Below, one piece after another: positions 3,731 through 21,052 of a stretch of DNA of 26,235 bases. Source of the stretch: a virus. The notes under the pieces were generated by a model, which was not told the origin of the DNA, made no database searches, and was given only the letters and a program-made list of their open reading frames with translations. Location: the IMG/VR virus record IMGVR_UViG_3300032240_001988, positions 1 to 26,235 of that record; one strand, given 5' to 3'. The position numbers and the translations under genes were made by a program. The first letter of the stretch is position 1, and each line of letters starts with the position of its first letter.

Positions 3731-3960
3731 TCGACCCGCGCGGCATGACATTGCTTCAGTGGGCGGATGCGGTTATACTGTCCAACGGTGACGCTTGGTC
3801 CTTCGGCCGCCTGCTCAACGAGAGCGACTGGCAGTCGTGGGCCGCAGCCTTTGTACGCGCGCAGCCCTTTGCGCAGCGCAGGCCACCAGACCCGTTTCAG
3901 TTCACTGATTGGCGAGAGTGGGCCATGCGCGCGTACCCGATGCTCGAAGGACAAGGCTGA
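3727..3960 (+). CDS. Small conserved phage virion-operon protein (77 aa)
   Basis: The ATG at 3727 overlaps the stop of the hub gene (ATGA), so translation is coupled. The product is 77 residues and Trp-rich (W12, W24, W35, W38 and two near the C-terminus), with an F-x-D-W-R-E-W-A motif near residues 59-66. It has no signal peptide or transmembrane segment and is probably a compact helical protein. Small proteins of this kind sit between the hub and ejection genes in many podophages, which suggests a role in tail or internal-protein assembly. No family was recognised with confidence. Confidence 0.75.
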   Translation: MIDPRGMTLLQWADAVILSNGDAWSFGRLLNESDWQSWAAAFVRAQPFAQRRPPDPFQFTDWREWAMRAYPMLEGQG

Positions 3961-5645
3961 TGGTTTCCCCACTGGAGCAGGCGGCCATGGACGCGTACAC
4001 CCCGGCGGTCAAAAACGCCGTGGGCTCGGACCTCGCTGCACAGTATCCGGGCGGTATCGGCTACAGCGCCCCCGGCACGGGCCCTGCGTACGATCCGAAT
4101 ATGGTCTTCCGTTTCAGCACGGGAGTGAAAAATCTCGGCTCGTCCGGTCCTTCCAAAAATCTGCCCGTGGTGCTGCGGCCGGGTGAAGTATACACGCTGA
4201 CCGATTTCAACGGCAATGTCATCGCGACGGCCAGCACCCCCGAGCAGATGCGCGACCTAGTCTCTGCCTCGGACAAAAAGGGTGCCTCTGGTTGGAAGCT
4301 GTATAGCAACCAAAGTCTGTACTCTACGCCGGGAACGTCGCCCACAGACCTGAGCAATCAGGTGTATTCGCATAGCCCAGCAGACAACACGATGGCGTAC
4401 ATATTGGGCGCTGCGGCGGCAGCCATGAGCGCGGGTGCCCTTACTGGTGTCGGCGCGGGTGCTGGCGCGGGTGCTGGCGCGGGTGCTGGCGCGGGTGCTG
4501 GCGCGGGTGCTGGCGCGGGTGCTGGCGCGGGTGCTGGCGCGGGTGCTGGCGCGGCTGCTGGCGTGGGTGCTGGCGCGGGCGCTGGCGTGGGCGCTGGCGC
4601 GGGCGCACTCGGTACTCTCGGTGGTGAGATTGTTGTTCCGGGTATTGTCGGGACTGGTGGCATCACGGCGGCACAGGCAGCCGCGCTTGCAGGAGTTGCA
4701 GGAGCTGGCGCACTCGCATCTGGGGTCGGCGGAAGCGCGGGTGCCGGAACCGGGGCTGGTAGCGGAGCCTCGACTGGGACGAGTACCGTCGATACGAACC
4801 CTATTGAGGTGAGCGCCACCAAGCCACCCGTGACTGCGGTGCCGAACACCATTCCGCCTATCACGATACCGCCCATCAATATCCCGCCTGCAGAGGTGCC
4901 GCAGGTTCCCACGAACAGTGGCCCGACCAACGATCCTAACAGCACGGTCGATACGAACCCTATCGAGGTCAAGGCACCCGTGACTGCAGTGCCGGACACC
5001 ATTCCGCCGATCACGATACCGCCCATCAATATTCCGCCTGCCGATGTGCCGCAGCTACCTACGAACACCGGCCCGACCAAGACCGCCCTCGACAAGTTCT
5101 TTGACTATCTCCGGCTGGCGGGTCTCGCCTCCGGCACGCTAGGCAGCCTCTTCGGTGGCGGCTCGGGCGGCGGCAACGCGGGCAAGTACTTCGGCACCGG
5201 CACGGGCAACCCGATCTTCTCGGCCAAGCTGCCCGAGGCTTCGCTACCGGGCGGTGTGTCGAGCATGTCCGCGCGGCCCGTGCCGGAGCAGAACTGGTAC
5301 GAGTACGGCTACCATCCCGGGCAGAGCTTCTTCAACACGTCCGCCCCGGGCTACACGCCCAAGCCCGGCAAGACGCCCGGCATGGCGCGCGGCGGAGACT
5401 TTGCCGTCCGGGGCCCGGGCACGGGACGCAGCGACAGCATCCCCGCCCGCCTGTCCGACGGCGAGTACGTCATGGACGCCGAGACGGTGGCCCTCCTCGG
5501 CGACGGATCGACGAAGGCGGGCGCGCAGAAGCTCGACCAGTTCCGCGTGAACTTGCGCAAGCAGAAGGGCCGCAACTTGGCCCGTGGCGAGTTCAGTGTT
5601 AAAGCAAAGAGGCCGGAGGCTTATCTGGCAGGGGGCCGCACGTAA
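3960..5645 (+). CDS. Gly/Ala-repeat virion protein with C-terminal SDSIPA motif
   Basis: Start chosen at ATG 3960, which overlaps the previous TGA (TGATG) and has GAAGGA at 3946-3951, 8 nt upstream; an in-frame ATG at 3909 lies inside the previous gene without that signal. The 561-residue product has a ~140-residue N-terminal domain, a hydrophobic Ala segment (about 144-160), a (GAGA)n tract (165-216), a repeated Pro/Ile-rich linker (about 277-374), a Gly-rich segment, and a C-terminal domain with ARGG (476-479) and DSIPARLSDGEYVM starting near residue 492. The last motif (S-D-S-I-P-A-x-L-S-x-G-E-Y/F-V) is common near the C-termini of tail, tape-measure and ejection proteins. The architecture fits an internal or ejection protein spanning tail and membrane; that role is inference. 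Confidence 0.7.
   Translation: MVSPLEQAAMDAYTPAVKNAVGSDLAAQYPGGIGYSAPGTGPAYDPNMVFRFSTGVKNLGSSGPSKNLPVVLRPGEVYTLTDFNGNVIATASTPEQMRDLVSASDKKGASGWKLYSNQSLYSTPGTSPTDLSNQVYSHSPADNTMAYILGAAAAAMSAGALTGVGAGAGAGAGAGAGAGAGAGAGAGAGAGAGAGAGAAAGVGAGAGAGVGAGAGALGTLGGEIVVPGIVGTGGITAAQAAALAGVAGAGALASGVGGSAGAGTGAGSGASTGTSTVDTNPIEVSATKPPVTAVPNTIPPITIPPINIPPAEVPQVPTNSGPTNDPNSTVDTNPIEVKAPVTAVPDTIPPITIPPINIPPADVPQLPTNTGPTKTALDKFFDYLRLAGLASGTLGSLFGGGSGGGNAGKYFGTGTGNPIFSAKLPEASLPGGVSSMSARPVPEQNWYEYGYHPGQSFFNTSAPGYTPKPGKTPGMARGGDFAVRGPGTGRSDSIPARLSDGEYVMDAETVALLGDGSTKAGAQKLDQFRVNLRKQKGRNLARGEFSVKAKRPEAYLAGGRT
4452..4607 (+). repeat. 12-bp tandem repeat encoding Gly-Ala-Gly-Ala
   Basis: Eight perfect copies of GGCGCGGGTGCT (4452-4547) are followed by five degenerate copies to 4607. 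Each unit is exactly four codons (G-A-G-A) in the frame of the host gene, so gain or loss of units keeps the reading frame. Perfect copies are at the 5' side and decayed ones at the 3' side, as expected for recent slippage-driven expansion. Confidence 0.97.
4788..5080 (+). repeat. Imperfect ~140-bp direct repeat encoding Pro/Ile-rich linker
   Basis: Copy 1 (4788-4930) and copy 2 (4947-5080) both run from GTCGATACGAACCCTAT to GCCCGACCAA. They encode the same pattern: T-N-P-I-E-V, a V-T-A-V-P stretch, then TIPPITIPPINIPPA and P-T-N-(S/T)-G-P-T. Differences are mostly third-position changes plus a short in-frame indel after I-E-V, so this is an in-frame tandem duplication under protein-level constraint. 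Confidence 0.92.
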
Positions 5646-10957: not shown

Positions 10958-12861
10958 TCCCCTACCTTGCACGCCTTGCGGCCAAGGCAGCCAAGAGCGC
11001 CGAGACGCGGGCCGCCGAGGAGGCCGCAGCGCAGTCAGCAGCACGGGCCGCCGAGGAGGCCGCAGCGCGCAGTTTGGCCGTCAGGGTAAAGCCGCGCGCC
11101 TTGCCCGCGCCGCCCAAGGTGCTGGCGCTGCCTGCACCGAAGCCGGGCCTTCCGTCGCTGGCGGCCAAGCCGCGCGGCGGCCAGTTCTTCCCTGACGCAC
11201 CGCTTGGCGGGCACGACGCGGAGGCGGCGGGCTTTAAGATACGCGACCGTGGTGAGCACGCGCCCGCAGGCATGCGCTATCAGGTAGTCCGGCCGAGTGG
11301 GGAAGGCTCCGGCATGTTTGCCGACACTCCCGCCGACGCGCGCAGGCAAGCGAACAGTTACTACAAATCTACCAGCACAGCGCAGTATAATCTGTCGCCC
11401 GAGGCGGCCGCGCGTGAAATGCGCAGCGACGCGAACCTCATAGACTGGACACCTGAAGGAGGGACCAGTCCGGAGCACGGCAGGCAGCTCGGCGACTGGC
11501 TAGAGAAGGCACTCACCAAGTACTACAAGACGGACTTCGGCGCGCCGAACGACCCGCTGCGCGATCTGGCCGCGCGCGGCTTGCACTACGATCCGGAGAT
11601 GACGCCCGAACGGTGGCACCAGACGGTCAATGACAGCCTGCGCGAAGACCCCATCGGCTACTACACGGTGCCTCGCCATGAGAACGATATTCGCATGGAG
11701 CACAATCCGCCGCAGTTCTCAACCGACTTCGCGGGCGATACGGACAACCTCGCGCAGCAACTGGCCCCCGGCCTGAGCTACTACGCCAATGCCGACCCCA
11801 CCGCGCAGGGCGCGCTCATGCAGGCCGCGCCGTGGCTTCGCAAGCAACCCGCCACGGACATGCTGTACGGCATCCGACCCGAGATGGACCTGAGCCACTT
11901 CACGGATGAGATGCGCAACGCCATGGACGTAGGCCAGAGCGGTCTGCCGATGGACCTCGCCGTGCGCCCCGAGAGCCTGCAGCGCATGAGCTTCCCGCAA
12001 GCTGTGGAGCACGTCGGGAAGATCAACCAGTTCCGCGCTCGCGAAATGGAGCGGATGGATGCTGCGAAGCGCGCCGAAACCTTGAAACTTGCCGCGCAGC
12101 AACTGCGAGAGAGCCCGGTCACGCATCTGTTCAAGGAATACCCAGACGACCCGCGCGGTATGCGCTGGGTTGAGATGGCACCACCCAAAGGCGAAGGCTC
12201 GACTAACTACAACGTGCAGGACGAGTTGCAACGGGCGCTCAAGTTCGAGGGTGACACCATGGGCCACTGCGTCGGCGGCTACTGCCCCGATGTGATGTCT
12301 GGCCAGAGCCGCATCTTCTCGCTGCGCGATGCGGAGGGCATGCCGCACGTCACGATTGAGACATCGCCGCGCGGCGGCTGGCTATCTGGCGAGCAGCTAA
12401 ACGAGTGGGAGCCGGGGGCCTTTGACCGCTATCTAGCACAGCGGCACGAGGAAGGAGGCATCGGCGACATGCACCGTTGGGCGAACGTCAATTTCCCAGA
12501 CCAGATGACGGGCCAAGACATCGTCCAGATCAAGGGCCCAAAGAACCACAAGCCGCAACCCGAGTACCTGCCCTTCGTGCAGGACTTCGTGAAGAGCGGC
12601 AAGTGGGGCGACGTGGGCGATCTACGCAATACCGACCTCGTGCGGTTGCCGGACCAGCGGTTCATCACGCAGGAACAGTATCACGAAGGTATGGCCCGTG
12701 CTCGCGAAGCACTCCCGCCAGAAGCGGACCCATACTCTATGCTCACGTTCAACTGGAATGGCCTAGCTCCGCACTTCGAGGGTTACGCGCAGGGCGGTCT
12801 TGCGGTAAAGAAGTGCGGCTGCATGCAGTGCGGAGGCCTCGCGGTAAGGAAAGCGGCATGA
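10948..12861 (+). CDS. PcfJ-like domain protein in the ejection-gene cluster (637 aa)
   Basis: GTG at 10948 has AGGAGG at 10937-10942, 5 nt upstream, and overlaps the end of the previous gene. Residues 1-45 are an Ala/Glu helix built partly from a 12-codon repeat. The middle (about 60-420) is unassigned. Residues 438-475 contain M-G-H-C-V-G-G-Y, then G-Q-S-R-I-F-S-L-R-D, then P-H-V-T-I-E, followed at ~525 by D-I-V-Q-I-K-G-P-K-N. This is the conserved pattern of the PcfJ-like family, known from conjugative plasmids and phages, biochemical role unsettled. The C-terminus has two G-G-L-A-V-(K/R)-K boxes flanking a CGCMQC cluster (623-628). In a late virion operon it may be a packaged, injected protein acting early in infection; that is inference. 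The family call rests on the motif alone. Confidence 0.6.
   Translation: MALIPYLARLAAKAAKSAETRAAEEAAAQSAARAAEEAAARSLAVRVKPRALPAPPKVLALPAPKPGLPSLAAKPRGGQFFPDAPLGGHDAEAAGFKIRDRGEHAPAGMRYQVVRPSGEGSGMFADTPADARRQANSYYKSTSTAQYNLSPEAAAREMRSDANLIDWTPEGGTSPEHGRQLGDWLEKALTKYYKTDFGAPNDPLRDLAARGLHYDPEMTPERWHQTVNDSLREDPIGYYTVPRHENDIRMEHNPPQFSTDFAGDTDNLAQQLAPGLSYYANADPTAQGALMQAAPWLRKQPATDMLYGIRPEMDLSHFTDEMRNAMDVGQSGLPMDLAVRPESLQRMSFPQAVEHVGKINQFRAREMERMDAAKRAETLKLAAQQLRESPVTHLFKEYPDDPRGMRWVEMAPPKGEGSTNYNVQDELQRALKFEGDTMGHCVGGYCPDVMSGQSRIFSLRDAEGMPHVTIETSPRGGWLSGEQLNEWEPGAFDRYLAQRHEEGGIGDMHRWANVNFPDQMTGQDIVQIKGPKNHKPQPEYLPFVQDFVKSGKWGDVGDLRNTDLVRLPDQRFITQEQYHEGMARAREALPPEADPYSMLTFNWNGLAPHFEGYAQGGLAVKKCGCMQCGGLAVRKAA
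11008..11068 (+). repeat. 25-bp direct repeat in Ala-rich N-terminus
   Basis: A 25-bp block beginning CGGGCCGCCGAGGAGGCC occurs at 11008-11032 and identically at 11044-11068, a period of 36 bp (12 codons). It encodes the repeated R-A-A-E-E-A-A-A helix segment of the 637-aa protein. Confidence 0.9.
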
Positions 12862-14384
12862 GCATAATTTCGGATTTTGCGGCGAAGGCGGCCCGGACTG
12901 CAGCGGCGAAGGCGGCCCGCGAGGCCGAGGCAGAGGCTGCGCGCGTGGCCGAGGCAGAAGCCGCGCAGGCTGCAGCGCGCGCTGCGCGCAAAACTGCGCC
13001 AACCAGTTTTGTAGTGTCTGAGCGGCAAGCAGCGGCTGAAAAGGCCCGTGCGCAAGCCGCGCGTGCGACCAAAACCAAGTACTCCGCTGTGGAACCGCAC
13101 CCTGATCCGCACCCCGAACTAGTTGATATTCAGTTTCCGCAAGGCGCGGGCCTTGGTGGCCCCTTTGCCATTCAGCAAGGTGTCCCCCTTGTTGGCCGTA
13201 AGCCGTTCATGGCGCAGAGCAACCGTGGATATTCAGGGCTGGCGGCAAGTGTTCCAGCAAATCGGGTAGAGGCCGACATTGTGCCTTTTGTCGATATGGC
13301 TCCGCGCGTCATCCGGTCCCCGGAAGAGATTGCACGTCAGTTTGCCGCAGGTATTCCTCTCACTGGCGATAAACTGCGCGCGGGTGTGGGTATCGCTAAA
13401 GTCAATGATATGCCGCAAGTAGGCATCGCGCCTGCATGGGGCGGCCCAGACTTCCCTAGACAGCAAGCTGCTATGGGTAGACGGGATGCATGGGGCAGCT
13501 TGGACGCGGTTATCGGCGGGCTCAACAACATGCGCGCCGCTGGCGAAAAAATGTATAACGGTCCCGTGGCCGGTGTTTATACCGCCATGGGAAACACCGG
13601 CCTCGACCAATCGACGGCTATGATGGACCTGCTTGGGCGCCAGCTTGCGGCGGGTGGCGTCACTAAGGCAAATCTGAAAGTTCTTGACCAACGGGTAAAA
13701 GCTCTCATGGGCGAGGATTTCGCCAAAACATTTACGGGCTTTGCGAAAGACCCCATTGAAGCTGCGGCGCAACTGAGCGATGTAACTCGCGTTCAGATGC
13801 CAAAGCGCACCGCCATCATTCAGGGGCTTGATAGCGCCAATGCACTGGCTGCGGGGTTCCCTGATATTGGCGCTAATCGGGCGGCCGCTACCACACCGGA
13901 ATTGCTTTACGCACCCGAAGGTGCTTCTGGCCACATGATCTCAGGGCTGACGGGCGAGACCCCGAGCAGCAGTGTCCCCGGCGTTGGGCATCACCCTAAC
14001 TACTTGAAGACCATCACGGGAGACTACTTCGGGGGCTTGGAGCAGAGTGTTCCGCGCGAACTTATGTTCCCTAACTATTTCAAGGCGATGCACGGGTCTG
14101 GGTATGACCCTGTTCAAGTGCAAGCGTACTTGTTTTCCAGAACTCCGAAAGAGATCAAAGAAGCCTTCGGCTCAGACCCGCGCATTCAACCCTTCGATCA
14201 GGAATGGGTGGACAAGAACTCTAAGTATCTTGAGGACATCGCGAAGTACGGCCACGAGCCTTACGCGCGTGGTGGTCTCGCTGTGAAGCAGCGTCCAAAA
14301 CGCCCTTCGGCACCTCGCTCCCTTGCTGCTCGCAAACCCAGCAAGGAAGCGCCCAAGGCACGGCATGCGGGCAACATTCGCTAG
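12858..14384 (+). CDS. Orphan protein with Ala-rich N-terminus and GGLAVK tail (508 aa)
   Basis: Start chosen at ATG 12858: it overlaps the previous TGA (ATGA) and has AAGGA at 12846-12850, 7 nt upstream. Residues ~8-55 are an Ala/Arg/Glu helix with K-A-A-R repeats, like the N-terminus of the preceding protein. The body includes M-D-L-L-G-R-Q-L-A-A-G-G, a G-E-D-F-A-K-T-F-T-G-F segment, H-H-P-N-Y-L-K-T-I-T-G-D-Y-F-G-G and a D-P-V-Q-V-Q-A-Y-L-F helix. It ends with YARGGLAVK (469-477) and a basic Pro/Arg/Lys tail. No family was recognised; it could be a polyvalent-type injected protein. Base use is lower in GC than its neighbours (about 48% in 13681-13740 against about 73% in 11761-11820), suggesting a more recent origin. 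It is the last gene of the operon. Confidence 0.65.
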   Translation: MSIISDFAAKAARTAAAKAAREAEAEAARVAEAEAAQAAARAARKTAPTSFVVSERQAAAEKARAQAARATKTKYSAVEPHPDPHPELVDIQFPQGAGLGGPFAIQQGVPLVGRKPFMAQSNRGYSGLAASVPANRVEADIVPFVDMAPRVIRSPEEIARQFAAGIPLTGDKLRAGVGIAKVNDMPQVGIAPAWGGPDFPRQQAAMGRRDAWGSLDAVIGGLNNMRAAGEKMYNGPVAGVYTAMGNTGLDQSTAMMDLLGRQLAAGGVTKANLKVLDQRVKALMGEDFAKTFTGFAKDPIEAAAQLSDVTRVQMPKRTAIIQGLDSANALAAGFPDIGANRAAATTPELLYAPEGASGHMISGLTGETPSSSVPGVGHHPNYLKTITGDYFGGLEQSVPRELMFPNYFKAMHGSGYDPVQVQAYLFSRTPKEIKEAFGSDPRIQPFDQEWVDKNSKYLEDIAKYGHEPYARGGLAVKQRPKRPSAPRSLAARKPSKEAPKARHAGNIR

Positions 14385-17083: not shown

Positions 17084-17361
17084 CCCCTTATGTGCGCCAC
17101 AATCTCGTCGATGTCCTCAATGGAGCGCGCGATGAAGACCGGGACGCCGTCGGCCTCCATGCGCTCGATCTCGCGCACCTGCAGCTTGCGCAGGCGGTCG
17201 CCCTCGGCCTTGATCTCCACGAAGGCGGCGCGCGGCCACGTCCACCAGATGAAGCAGTCAGGGCAGCCGCTGCGGCCCTCCCAGCGCACCTTGCGGTACT
17301 GGCCGCCGCTCTTCTGCACGACGTGCTTGAGGTGGTCCTGCAGCCTACCGGCGGGGGTCAC
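17080..17361 (-). CDS. VRR-NUC domain nuclease
   Basis: 93 residues from GTG 17361, overlapping the HNH stop (GTGA). The stand-alone VRR-NUC fold of the PD-(D/E)xK superfamily is shown by G-C-P-D (32-35; D35 catalytic), then F-V-E-I-K (47-51; E49, K51) and Q61 in K-L-Q-V-R-E-I. Length is normal for phage single-domain members. These metal-dependent enzymes cut branched or flapped DNA and act as resolvase- or FAN1-like nucleases; here it would trim replication or recombination intermediates made by the PolA and SNF2 enzymes of the same arm. Its stop codon lies inside the -35 box of promoter A. An alternative start, ATG, is absent nearby, and the GTG fits the coupled layout. Confidence 0.9.
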   Translation of the reverse strand: MTPAGRLQDHLKHVVQKSGGQYRKVRWEGRSGCPDCFIWWTWPRAAFVEIKAEGDRLRKLQVREIERMEADGVPVFIARSIEDIDEIVAHIRG

Positions 17362-17876
17362 TGCGCGAAGGCTCCGTGGGCCTTTTCAGCGGCCCGCCTG
17401 TACGCTTCGCCTGCGGCTTCAGCAGTCTCGTAGTGGCCCAAAAACACGGATTTCCGGTCAAGCACTATTTGAGCACGCCATTTCCCACGAGGCTTGTCCC
17501 AGCAAACACCTTTGTGGCCCGAGGTGTTGTTCTTGTTCGCGCCGCGATTGTACTGGTTCTGCGTGTTGGTAGCCTCCCGCAGATTTTCGATTCGGTTGTC
17601 ACCGGGATTTCCATTGATGTGGTCGATCTGCTGATCAGGCCATCGGCCAGTCTCAAACAGCCACGCCAAACGGTGCGCCTTCAAAAGGCGATGCGAGAGA
17701 TGAATGCTGACACGCCTGTCCGGCCCTATGGTTCCCGCCCGAGTTCCTGCGTATTTGCTGTTCCAAGCGCGGGCAGCGCGCTGACTGGCGAAATGTTTTT
17801 CGGGCCGTGAGAGCCAGCGAAACTCTCCTGTGTCGCGGTCATAGCACAAACAGTCCCGCAAAAACGCCAACTCCAC
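17358..17876 (-). CDS. HNH homing endonuclease with AP2 DNA-binding domain
   Basis: 172 residues from GTG 17876; AAGGA in the 3' end of the polymerase gene supplies the Shine-Dalgarno. The HNH_3 core is H-R-L-A-W (66-72), I-D-H-I-N-G-N (84-90; H86 catalytic), and N-R-I-E-N-L-R-E-A-T (94-103). It is followed by the usual N-T-S-G-H-K-G-V-x-W and an AP2-like module (about 118-170) with K-W-R-A-Q-I, L-G-H-Y-E-T and A-Y-R-R-A-A. The order HNH then AP2 and the length are typical of free-standing phage homing endonucleases. It sits directly downstream of the DNA polymerase gene, a classic homing niche, with lower GC than the surrounding genes. It is probably a selfish element that cleaves the polymerase locus of related phages. 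Confidence 0.92.
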   Translation of the reverse strand: MELAFLRDCLCYDRDTGEFRWLSRPEKHFASQRAARAWNSKYAGTRAGTIGPDRRVSIHLSHRLLKAHRLAWLFETGRWPDQQIDHINGNPGDNRIENLREATNTQNQYNRGANKNNTSGHKGVCWDKPRGKWRAQIVLDRKSVFLGHYETAEAAGEAYRRAAEKAHGAFAQ

Positions 17877-17878
17877 AC

Positions 17879-19834
17879 TCAGTCCTTTCGGTATCTGTAC
17901 GTCTCAAACCCGGCTGCGGCCAACGGAAGCCCCATCGTCCACGGAAGATTGGCGGACATTAACGCAGAAAGATGTTCCGCGCTATAGTCTTCGGTGTCGG
18001 GAACGTCGCAAATCAGCTCGTCGTGTACGTGGAGGCAGACCTCGTACCCGGCGGCTTGAGCGGCAAGCAACCCCGAGGCGAAAACGTCGCGAGCGGTGGC
18101 TTGCACGATGTTTTCGACCAGTTTGCCGTAGTAGGTATCAAGCGCCTCCCACTTGCGAGTGTACTGGTTGACCCCGTCGTACAAAATCGCGCCGTCTTCA
18201 ATGCGCGCATTGGGGTAGCTCAGATACCGGCCTGATCTCAGTTTTATGCGGAGCCAACCCGTCTTCATGTCGAAAAACATTCCGCGCGCCTCAAAGACGC
18301 CTTCTGGACTGTTGATTGCTAAGCGCGTAGCACGCTCCACGTCATGCCAGAATGCAACGACGTTTTTGTGGGCATTACGCCAAGCTCGCACCAATACGTG
18401 TATTTCATCGTCAGTCATGGCGTCTACTGCGGATCCCCCCATCTTCCGGTACGCCCCAACAGACCCCCCAAAACCACAAGCCAATTCCATCGTTTTTCCG
18501 TATTGACGCATCGAACCGTCGCCGTATTTCTTATTTTCGACGACGACATCGGGATCGACATCAAACGCCTTCGCATACGCGACTACGTAAAGGTCGTGCC
18601 CTGTACCTGCGTCGAAGGCCCTGAACGCATCAATCTTCCAATCCTCACCGGCCAACCACGCCAATACACGCCCCTCAATATTGGATAGGTCAGCCACGAC
18701 CAATTTGTTACCGGGCGACGCCACGAGGCACCCTCGTACCGCTGAGGAGCAAAGTTCGGTCACGTTCCCGAAAAGCAAATCCTCGCAGTTGAGTTTCATC
18801 GCCGCGATGCCTTGCTCAATTTCTTTGGGCTCCAGCGTTGGCCTTGGTAGATTTTGGGGCTGAAAAAGCCTGCCACCCCATCTTCCGGTCCTAGCTGCCC
18901 CGCAAAACTGCAAAGAACCACGCAGCCTACCATCCGGCGACGCGGCGTCCAGAACCACCTTGTACTTGGCCGGGGACGTGGCCGAGGCTTGCTGCCTTAT
19001 CTCCAACAGCTCACGTACCCTCGGGTCAAGCTCGCTGTTCAACAAGCCAGATACGGTGCCCTTGGTCATGTCTTCCGGGGCAAAGTTATGGTGTACAGCG
19101 AGGTAGTCCAGCAACTTCTGGCGCTGCGTCAGGCTGGCTACGGCGCCGCCCGTGAGCTTGGCGGTACGAGTGGCCAAAGCTCGTGAAGTTCGTTCAAAAG
19201 CTCGGAGAGCAGATCGTGCGAGGTCTCGGTCGCAACAGGTGCCAAAGTCATTAATTCTTTGGTCTGCCAGCCATAGGTTCCGCTCACGATCACCACAATT
19301 CCATCTTGGCAGGCGTCGATATACGTCTCGCATCGCGTCCACATCGAGGCGGGCGTATTCGATGAAGGATGCCCACTCATCTGGGTGCGTCTCCCGCGTG
19401 GCCCGGCGCAGCTTCACGTTCTTCGGCCGGGGTTTGGTGAGCAGTTGTATCAGCTTCTTGCCCGCCTTGTCTTTAGCCTTGTCCTGCGGCACGCCAAGCA
19501 CGTCGCAGAGCATGCCCAGCGAGGCGGGCAGGCTGTGCTGCAGGGCCAGCACCATGGTGTCCGTAATTTTATCCACAGGAATATTTACGCCGCAGTGGCG
19601 CAGCACGGTGCGGTCGAAGTGGCTGTTGTGCAGCACCACCTCGTCGGCGTAGTCGATCATGGCGATCAGGCTGTCGCGCCAGTCTGGCACGTCCTGCGTG
19701 TCCCACACGGTGACCGGCTCGTCGTCCCACGCCCACGGCACGAGCATGACTTCGGCGCCCTCGGCGTATGCGTGCGTGCCGTGCGTGATGGGCACCTCGC
19801 TGAAGGTCTCCGTGTCGAGGAAGAGCGTGTTCAC
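17879..19834 (-). CDS. DNA polymerase, family A (PolI type) with 3'-5' exonuclease
   Basis: 651 residues from GTG 19834, overlapping the upstream stop (GTGA), with GAGG 7 nt before. Proofreading domain: Exo I LDTET (D7, E9), Exo II H-N-S-H-F-D (N70, D74), Exo III Y-A-R-L-D (Y160, D164). Polymerase domain: motif A A-D-L-S-N-I-E (D382, E387), motif B R-Q-Y-G-K-T-M-E-L-A-C-G-F-G (R443, K447, Y462), motif C V-H-D-E (H604, D605, E606). All catalytic residues are present. There is no 5'-3' exonuclease domain. It is the probable replicative polymerase, working with the primase-helicase and DUF2815 SSB. The coding sequence changes from about 70% GC in its 5' part to about 50% around 18.3 kb, next to the HNH gene. 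Confidence 0.96.
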   Translation of the reverse strand: MNTLFLDTETFSEVPITHGTHAYAEGAEVMLVPWAWDDEPVTVWDTQDVPDWRDSLIAMIDYADEVVLHNSHFDRTVLRHCGVNIPVDKITDTMVLALQHSLPASLGMLCDVLGVPQDKAKDKAGKKLIQLLTKPRPKNVKLRRATRETHPDEWASFIEYARLDVDAMRDVYRRLPRWNCGDRERNLWLADQRINDFGTCCDRDLARSALRAFERTSRALATRTAKLTGGAVASLTQRQKLLDYLAVHHNFAPEDMTKGTVSGLLNSELDPRVRELLEIRQQASATSPAKYKVVLDAASPDGRLRGSLQFCGAARTGRWGGRLFQPQNLPRPTLEPKEIEQGIAAMKLNCEDLLFGNVTELCSSAVRGCLVASPGNKLVVADLSNIEGRVLAWLAGEDWKIDAFRAFDAGTGHDLYVVAYAKAFDVDPDVVVENKKYGDGSMRQYGKTMELACGFGGSVGAYRKMGGSAVDAMTDDEIHVLVRAWRNAHKNVVAFWHDVERATRLAINSPEGVFEARGMFFDMKTGWLRIKLRSGRYLSYPNARIEDGAILYDGVNQYTRKWEALDTYYGKLVENIVQATARDVFASGLLAAQAAGYEVCLHVHDELICDVPDTEDYSAEHLSALMSANLPWTMGLPLAAAGFETYRYRKD

Positions 19835-20203: not shown

Positions 20204-20441
20204 GTGCCCGCTTGTACGTGTCGAGGACCGCCTCCATCTCGCGGCGGTCATCAGGCTGCATCTTCCTGAGCCGCACGATCTGACGCATGATTTTGGCGTC
20301 GTAGCCGACGGAGCGTGCCTCAAGGTACACGTCCTTGATGTCGTCCGCGATGCCCTTCTTCTCCTCCTCAAGACGCTCGATGCGCTCGATCAGGAGCCGG
20401 AGGCGGTCGTCCGCGTCTCCGTTGTGGCCGAGGCCCGCCAT
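20184..20441 (-). CDS. gapR: GapR-family nucleoid-associated protein (DUF2312)
   Basis: 85 residues from ATG 20441, sharing a base with the SSB stop (TAATG). After a short N-terminus ([10 protein letters not shown]) the protein matches DUF2312/Gap[21 protein letters not shown], then [27 protein letters not shown], and a final [11 protein letters not shown] helix. GapR is an alphaproteobacterial chromosome-structuring protein whose coiled-coil dimers/tetramers clamp overtwisted, AT-rich DNA ahead of forks and help gyrase and topoisomerase IV. Phage copies are known in alphaproteobacterial phages. Here it is co-transcribed with the SSB and nuclease and next to the polymerase, so it may relieve torsional stress during phage replication or displace host GapR. 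Length and motif order are complete. Confidence 0.93.
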
Positions 20442-21052
20442 TAGAACAGGTCTTCCGCGTCGGGCAGCGGCGCCGCGAACTGGGAAAAGTCTGCCACCGA
20501 AGTGCGGGGGGTAGTATTGACGAAACGCTCACCGTCGTCGGCAAACATGACGCCCTGCACCTCGCAAGAAATGCGGTTCCCGTCATCACGGAGCAGCACG
20601 TAAACCTCGACCTTGAAATGCGCGTAGCAACCCGCGTAGAGCGTTGCTGCCTGCTTGTCCGGCTCAATCTCTTGGCCGAACTTGTCGAGCAGCAGCGGCT
20701 TCTTGCTCCTACCCTTCTTGTCAAACTCCGGCGCGCTCGCGCCGAGGCTGAACTTACCCTCGAAGCCCGAGTATACCTCGCCCGCGCTGTTGGTGTAGTC
20801 TTCCTTGTTGAACGCCGAACGACCCTTGGTGATAATGGTCTTCAGCGAGCCTTCTGCCGTTTTGCCAAACGTGTATGCGGCTACAGCCTTGATGGCTTCG
20901 TCGATAACCGCCACGTCGGGGTCAGTGGGGTCGATGATGATACGGCACCCATACACGGGCTTGCCGCCCTTAATCGACCGCGCCTGCGCGAGGTCAGGAA
21001 AGGCCAGACGCTTGCTGCGAAGCATCAGTGTAATGTTTTTTGCAGGTTCCAT
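20441..21052 (-). CDS. DUF2815 single-stranded DNA-binding protein
   Basis: 203 residues from ATG 21052, with GAAGGA about 7 nt upstream overlapping the DUF2800 stop. The order [25 protein letters not shown], a charged loop, [32 protein letters not shown] and G-V-M-F-A-D-D-G-E fits the DUF2815 family, an OB-fold group resembling T7 gp2.5 SSB. It ends with the acidic tail P-L-P-D-A-E-D-L-F, an Asp/Glu-rich tip with a terminal Phe as in T7 gp2.5 and bacterial SSBs, where it recruits partner proteins. Role: coats ssDNA for the polymerase, primase-helicase and recombination nuclease. DUF2815 and DUF2800 genes are usually adjacent, as here. Confidence 0.9.

Follow-up and report, generated by a model that had tools for sequence, protein, structure and literature searches.

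What produced the block of low GC content that covers much of a DNA polymerase gene and a neighbouring nuclease gene in a viral replication cassette? IMG/VR virus record IMGVR_UViG_3300032240_001988, whose 26,235 bases are hereafter called the window, carries this cassette on the minus strand. An earlier note read the block between 17358 and 19380 as a homing footprint, i.e. as one foreign segment that starts at 19380 within the family A polymerase gene and was imported by co-conversion along with an HNH/AP2 endonuclease gene at its other end. This reading held in part: a foreign polymerase segment does lie beside the HNH gene, but its edge is not at 19380. Instead, two unrelated features are superimposed, a conserved gene predicted to be nested in another frame of the polymerase gene, and a foreign 3' half of the polymerase that was probably imported with the HNH gene. 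We assign this explanation as a whole a probability of about 0.8.

The compositional anomaly itself was confirmed. GC was 0.508 at 18301-18420 and 0.70 at 19501-19560, and that of the whole block, 0.567 compared with 0.647 for the window, was the 13th lowest among 24,213 sliding windows of equal length (mean 0.645, sd 0.027). The GC content at third codon positions (GC3) of the polymerase was 0.89 in codons 1-150, 0.47 in 151-225, 0.81 in 226-300 and about 0.63-0.64 in 301-651; the values of the HNH gene and of the VRR-NUC gene behind it were 0.65 and 0.93. The contrast between codons 1-150 and 151-651 had a Fisher p of 1e-10. Segmentation of GC3 across the three genes by the Bayesian information criterion was best with four segments (0.88, 0.36, 0.66 and 0.93), with boundaries behind codons 168 and 223 and a third close to the HNH end. 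The preference was slight, with a five-segment solution 1.0 units off and a three-segment solution only 0.6 units off; the latter placed its boundaries behind codon 82 and close to the HNH end and lacked those of the nested gene. The low-GC block is real but composite. Codons ~169-223 are the core of the nested open reading frame (ORF) and are low in GC3 in relatives as well, while codons ~300-651 and the HNH gene are low in the window and not in its near relatives L002, L006 and L007.

An ORF of 80 codons begins at 19380 with an ATG; it lies on the same strand in the +1 frame of the polymerase. The polymerase sample comprised the window and 80 retained relatives (L001-L080). The nested ORF was present in 70 of these 81 polymerases, including that of the window, and always started at codon 147 (40 cases) or 152 (30 cases). 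GC3 of codons 151-225 ranged from 0.39 to 0.56 in the 69 carriers among the relatives and from 0.71 to 0.92 in the 11 non-carriers (L021-L025, L032, L034, L035, L044, L064 and L074), without overlap. Codons 226-300 of the 69 low-GC3 relatives were back at 0.68-0.96, save in L033 (0.49). GC3 dips to the level of second positions in the nested stretch because every third position of a polymerase codon serves as a second position in the nested frame. Since relatives with the nested ORF share the drop at codons 151-225 whatever their GC, 19380 is not a recombination edge, and a single foreign block starting there was rejected; the switch in ancestry lies near codon 300. On a tree built without the nested region, carriage was explained by two state changes.

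The start sites were accompanied by Shine-Dalgarno-like motifs. Codon-147 starts were GTG in 35 and ATG in 5 polymerases, and GGAG, AGGAG or AGGAGG stood 7-8 nucleotides (nt) before codon 147 in 40/40 polymerases with this start and in 0/41 others; codon 144 was AGA or AGG in all 40. Codon-152 starts were invariably ATG (30/30) with GGAG 10 nt upstream in 24/30, a motif that occurred at this spacing in 0/40 polymerases with the 147 start and in 0/11 non-carriers. All in all, 64 of the 70 carriers had a GGAG-type motif 7-10 nt upstream, and the putative ribosome-binding site moves together with the nested start. The nested stop straddles codon 227 in 67/70, codon 232 in two (one of them the window) and codon 235 in one. 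Searching with an alignment of the nested protein returned 139 IMG/VR stretches, among which repeats of a single contig occur, and one GTDB match, a 4.2 kb contig of a metagenome-assembled genome labelled Bacteroidia that is too short to name a host. In the 81 loci examined (80 of the 139 viral ones and the GTDB contig) the ORF always lay inside a polymerase in the +1 frame with a start at 147 or 152, although all were recovered via the nested ORF and many are contigs already in the polymerase sample.

Evidence for coding came from 35 non-redundant carriers (<95% identity) and 7 non-carriers, drawn from 42 aligned rows. The third position was A or T in at least 90% of carriers (GC3 ≤ 0.1) in 18 of 77 columns within codons 147-227 and in 2 of 543 elsewhere; non-carriers had no such column in 147-227. 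The ratio of third- to first-position change was 1.00-1.07 over codons 171-227 of carriers, 1.33-3.15 in their other segments and 1.51-1.79 over codons 171-227 of non-carriers. The lowest 75-codon windows for this ratio began at codons 168-170 (1.09-1.11), and the lowest one clear of 147-227 was 1.42. Identity of the +1 translation relative to that of the polymerase ranked codons 152-227 second of 575 windows in carriers, behind a direct neighbour, and 185th in non-carriers; the +2 frame in carriers ranked 170th. The observed +1 identity was 0.610 compared with 0.433 ± 0.006 when synonymous codons were redrawn, a null that ignores kinship. The frame was open in 73/81 polymerases with 35.7 expected.

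Several observations weigh against a nested gene. Three of the open frames belong to non-carriers (L032, L034 and L035), and openness by itself is weak evidence in high-GC genes. Six of the 30 codon-152 carriers lack GGAG at the usual spacing; three of these have another four-base Shine-Dalgarno fragment 13 nt upstream and three have none, while one non-carrier has AGGA 12 nt before codon 152. Codons 147-170 showed no third-position signal (ratio 3.15), and synonymous conservation was modest, at 0.71-0.93 of expectation in codons 161-240, which codons 561-600 match (0.72-0.80). As any nucleotide-level element could in principle constrain third positions, RNA structure or a DNA signal such as an origin, promoter or operator might be what conserves codons 160-226. 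Yet RNA folding was not in excess in the 16 of 35 carriers tested (mean z 0.11 relative to synonymous permutations; control segment -0.96), start, Shine-Dalgarno motif and stop are kept, the motif shifts with the start, and change at third positions drops against that at first positions, as expected for a +1 frame. We consider such an element very improbable. Programmed frameshifting from the polymerase, which would join the exonuclease domain to another tail, is to our judgement equally improbable. Upstream of its start the +1 frame indeed stays free of stops: back to codon 141 in the window, over 4-18 codons before 147 starts, and over a far longer stretch in part of the 152-start polymerases, reaching codon 2 in L076 and L078. 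A frameshift, however, would not need two alternative starts each with its own Shine-Dalgarno motif. The data favor a conserved overprinted gene whose predicted protein is without a convincing relative, and whose translation and function are inferred.

The foreign part of the polymerase was delimited by comparison with L002, L006 and L007 and by separate trees for residues 1-150, 151-300 and 301-651. The three relatives were 86-90% identical to the window in residues 1-150 and 68-84% per 50 residues in 151-300. In residues 401-450 they reached only 32-36%, while the other members of L001-L016 reached 76-80%. The window grouped with L002, L006 and L007 in the trees of residues 1-150 (support 97) and 151-300 (support 99). 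In that of residues 301-651 it formed a long branch (0.49) whose sister was a clade of eight rows from L001-L016 (the L001 clade; support 97). The approximately unbiased (AU) test rejected a placement of 301-651 with L002, L006 and L007 (p 1.5e-5) and of 1-150 with the L001 clade (p 0.009). Thus a foreign polymerase segment does adjoin the HNH gene, as the earlier note had supposed, and of the two parts it proposed for separate phylogenies, 1-150 and 151-651, only the stretch from 301 on conflicts with 1-150, whereas 151-300 groups as 1-150 does. Nucleotide identity to the three relatives fell from 77-85% in codons 276-300 to 57-63% in 301-325. We place the ancestry edge within codons ~300-415, with codon 300 (about 18935) as the best estimate by nucleotide identity and GC3. 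This picture is blurred by two results: the AU test did not reject residues 151-300 with the L001 clade (p 0.114), and among the diagnostic residues of 301-400, 5 resemble the near relatives, 2 the L001 clade and 4 neither, with a clear switch only after 400. Within the imported part, residues 417-449 differ from L002, L006 and L007 before and around an RQ.GK motif.

The trees alone give no direction, so L002, L006 and L007 could be the recombinants while the window keeps the ancestral 3' half. However, GC3 of their codons 401-651 is 0.88-0.93, at least as high as in the rest of their polymerases, while that of the window is 0.64 there and 0.89 in codons 1-150. Therefore the window is the likely recipient, and we regard the reverse direction as highly unlikely.

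The endonuclease at the end of the block matched HNH_3 (66.9 bits) and AP2 (36.2 bits) above both Pfam cut-offs, in agreement with its earlier designation. Its gene begins 2 nt past the polymerase stop and ends on the TGA of the VRR-NUC start. In L006 and L007 the junction is empty, with the polymerase TGA overlapping the VRR-NUC ATG, and the HNH gene is inserted exactly there. The nearest three relatives, L002, L006 and L007, lack any match to it and carry another polymerase 3' half, so relatives free of HNH, which the earlier note wished to see compared, do exist. The junction is an accessory-gene slot for varied genes, measuring ≤6 nt in 25 of 78 measurable relatives and 185-1,718 nt in the other 53, where ORFs of several kinds occur. 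L074 has a different HNH gene there, 52% identical to that of the window over 87 residues. The slot also holds a recurrent MFTQLNP-type protein of 60-66 amino acids (aa) and, in L014, L015, L043 and L061, paired ORFs that we take to be methyltransferase-like by a familiar motif.

The conservation and constraint of the nested ORF, the incongruent ancestry, the exact HNH insertion and the similar composition are observations. Beyond them we propose the following course. On the polymerase mRNA, ribosomes would initiate internally at a Shine-Dalgarno site belonging to the nested gene (19380-19138) and so translate it. Polymerase codons about 301-651 would have been acquired from an unsampled lower-GC relative; this 3' part and the adjacent HNH_3-AP2 gene most likely arrived in one event. 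The driver may have been double-strand-break co-conversion as the HNH gene homed into an empty polymerase/VRR-NUC junction.

The rival to homing is the view that ordinary recombination between co-infecting phages brought in the 3' half of the polymerase and the HNH gene, the latter as a passenger or as a separate arrival, and that there was no homing. Mosaic patches without a nuclease gene fit this view: the SSB gene at 20441-21052 is 51% identical to that of L007 beside a GapR gene of 94%, and codons 26-75 of the L007 polymerase are 64-69% identical in nucleotides to the window between flanks of 88% and 97%. So does the extra junction DNA in 53/78 relatives. On the other hand, 11 hand-picked pairs that differ in slot content, none of them with an HNH match, all kept the 3' half: their polymerase halves agreed within 3.4 points (e.g. 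99.2/98.5), while the window scored 82.2/62.8 with L007 (gap 19.4) and 81.8/61.1 with L006 (gap 20.7). Because of this gap and because the HNH gene is similarly low in GC3 to the 3' half of the polymerase, we favor one import of both. Exchange by ordinary recombination without homing nevertheless falls only a little short of an even chance. Homing taken as a step of its own stands at about even odds, because the SSB gene and the L007 patch were exchanged without HNH. Against homing also speak that the best relative of codons 301-651 was 71% identical, so that no tract donor was found, that the HNH gene had no close relatives among those found, and that this is a single HNH case with a foreign tract on one side only. 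The SSB gene, with a lower GC3 of 0.745, is another likely exchange.

Features of the polymerase region in the window
Feature	Position	Strand	Basis
Family A DNA polymerase with 3'-5' exonuclease domain, 651 aa	17879..19834	(-)	Pfam matches
Polymerase codons 1-300, native lineage (with L002, L006 and L007)	18935..19834	(-)	Identity, trees and AU test
Polymerase codons 301-651, foreign tract, GC3 0.63	17879..18934	(-)	Identity, trees, AU test and GC3
Shine-Dalgarno-like GGGAG, 10 nt before nested ATG	19391..19395	(-)	Sequence; GGAG at this spacing in relatives
Predicted nested ORF, 80 aa, +1 frame, polymerase codons 152-232	19138..19380	(-)	Conservation
HNH_3-AP2 endonuclease, 172 aa, at polymerase/VRR-NUC junction	17358..17876	(-)	Pfam; junction empty in L006 and L007
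VRR-NUC endonuclease, native, GC3 0.93, 88% identical to L007	17080..17361	(-)	GTGA start overlaps HNH stop

The nested protein measures 75-85 aa in the aligned sequences, with 12 invariant columns among 48 members, to which conservation of the polymerase contributes. Of two structure models of moderate quality (mean predicted local distance difference test, pLDDT, 64.6 and 69.2), the second suggested a beta-hairpin of residues 27-36 and 39-48 (block pLDDT 72-84) and a helix of residues 55-67, with the first 20 residues uncertain. A tblastn search of the window's protein against 50,697 phage records gave a single weak partial match (E 0.6), PHROG gave nothing at E 0.01 and PDB sequences none at E 1. 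The 48 aligned members had scattered weak Pfam matches (best 0.013) and a best PHROG match of 0.003 to a family of unknown function, reached by 4/48 members; ten members searched again reached 0.08 at best. Foldseek returned at best E 0.74 in PDB for the first model and 0.038 in BFVD for the second, and another structure comparison gave Z ≤ 3.5, which rules out no fold. As to its role, our guess is a small replication-linked partner or regulator. It is possible, if somewhat doubtful, that the ORF founds a new phage protein family overprinted on the polymerase, whose small product, synthesized in concert with the polymerase, would act as a dedicated replisome partner or regulator or would inhibit some process of the host. 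If so, the nested gene could not be lost or swapped without a change of the polymerase it is written into.

Named phages were considered as further carriers. Bbp41 of BPP-1 was rejected as an annotated nested gene as it is located upstream of the polymerase. The frame contained 1-5 stops in 9/9 phages inspected (BPP-1, KcrB, 606R2, 4316, APSE-1, APSE-7, YeP4, BcepC6B and BL94). The polymerases of KcrB and APSE-1 are 960 and 993 aa long with large internal inserts, and in APSE-1 an HNH gene is annotated within the polymerase gene.

By overprinting, an older viral gene comes to encode an additional protein in a different frame. The predicted gene described here fits this pattern; what differs is its location in the family A polymerase gene of a tailed phage and the choice of two Shine-Dalgarno-equipped starts among relatives. 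We found no description of such nesting in the family A polymerase of a phage in the titles and abstract openings of the open-licence literature, among the matches listed. According to a report on phage ShiLan, an HNH endonuclease is hidden out of frame in a methylase gene, where its ORF lies within a mobile insertion and a ribosome-binding site could not be detected (PMC11855218). Both cases have an out-of-frame ORF within a phage enzyme gene; unlike that of ShiLan, the frame in the window overlies ordinary polymerase codons and has a Shine-Dalgarno motif. HNH-AP2 (IPA-HNH) homing endonuclease genes are described as lying near essential phage genes, 29% beside DNA polymerase, and at boundaries of exchange (PMC10448857). 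The window likewise has HNH and AP2 domains beside a polymerase at an exchange boundary. The IPA-HNH domains are called too divergent for Pfam HNH_3 there, whereas the HNH of the window matches HNH_3, and homing is putative here.

Same-strand nested genes are easily missed by annotation, and a step of GC within a gene may reflect dual coding rather than transfer. A dip of GC3 together with a shifted codon-position pattern would be an easy screen for further nested genes. The HNH case adds that a polymerase 3' half changed along with a nuclease gene, while other slot differences left the polymerase intact.

The polymerase matched DNA_pol_A with 44.2 bits (cut-off 34.3) and its exonuclease domain with 22.6 bits, slightly below the cut-off of 23.6. 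The cassette runs on the minus strand in the order primase-type ATPase, DUF2800, Enc34-type SSB, GapR-like protein, family A polymerase, HNH_3-AP2, VRR-NUC, DUF6011 and SNF2 helicase. L007 is the closest relative of the window, with identities of 94% for GapR, 88% for VRR-NUC, 86% for SNF2 (partial), 83% for DUF2800 and only 71% for the polymerase. By gene names the cassette resembles Erythrobacter phage R34L1, whose ORFs 62-67 are given as helicase, VRR-NUC, methyltransferase, family A polymerase, SSB and exonuclease, and ORF28 as GapR (PMC12185513).

The block is not the sole low-GC stretch of the window: a gene at 12858-14384, far from the nuclease gene and with no Pfam match, has a GC3 of 0.59. 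Elsewhere, at 3909-5645, a predicted protein contains a long Gly-Ala repeat tract.

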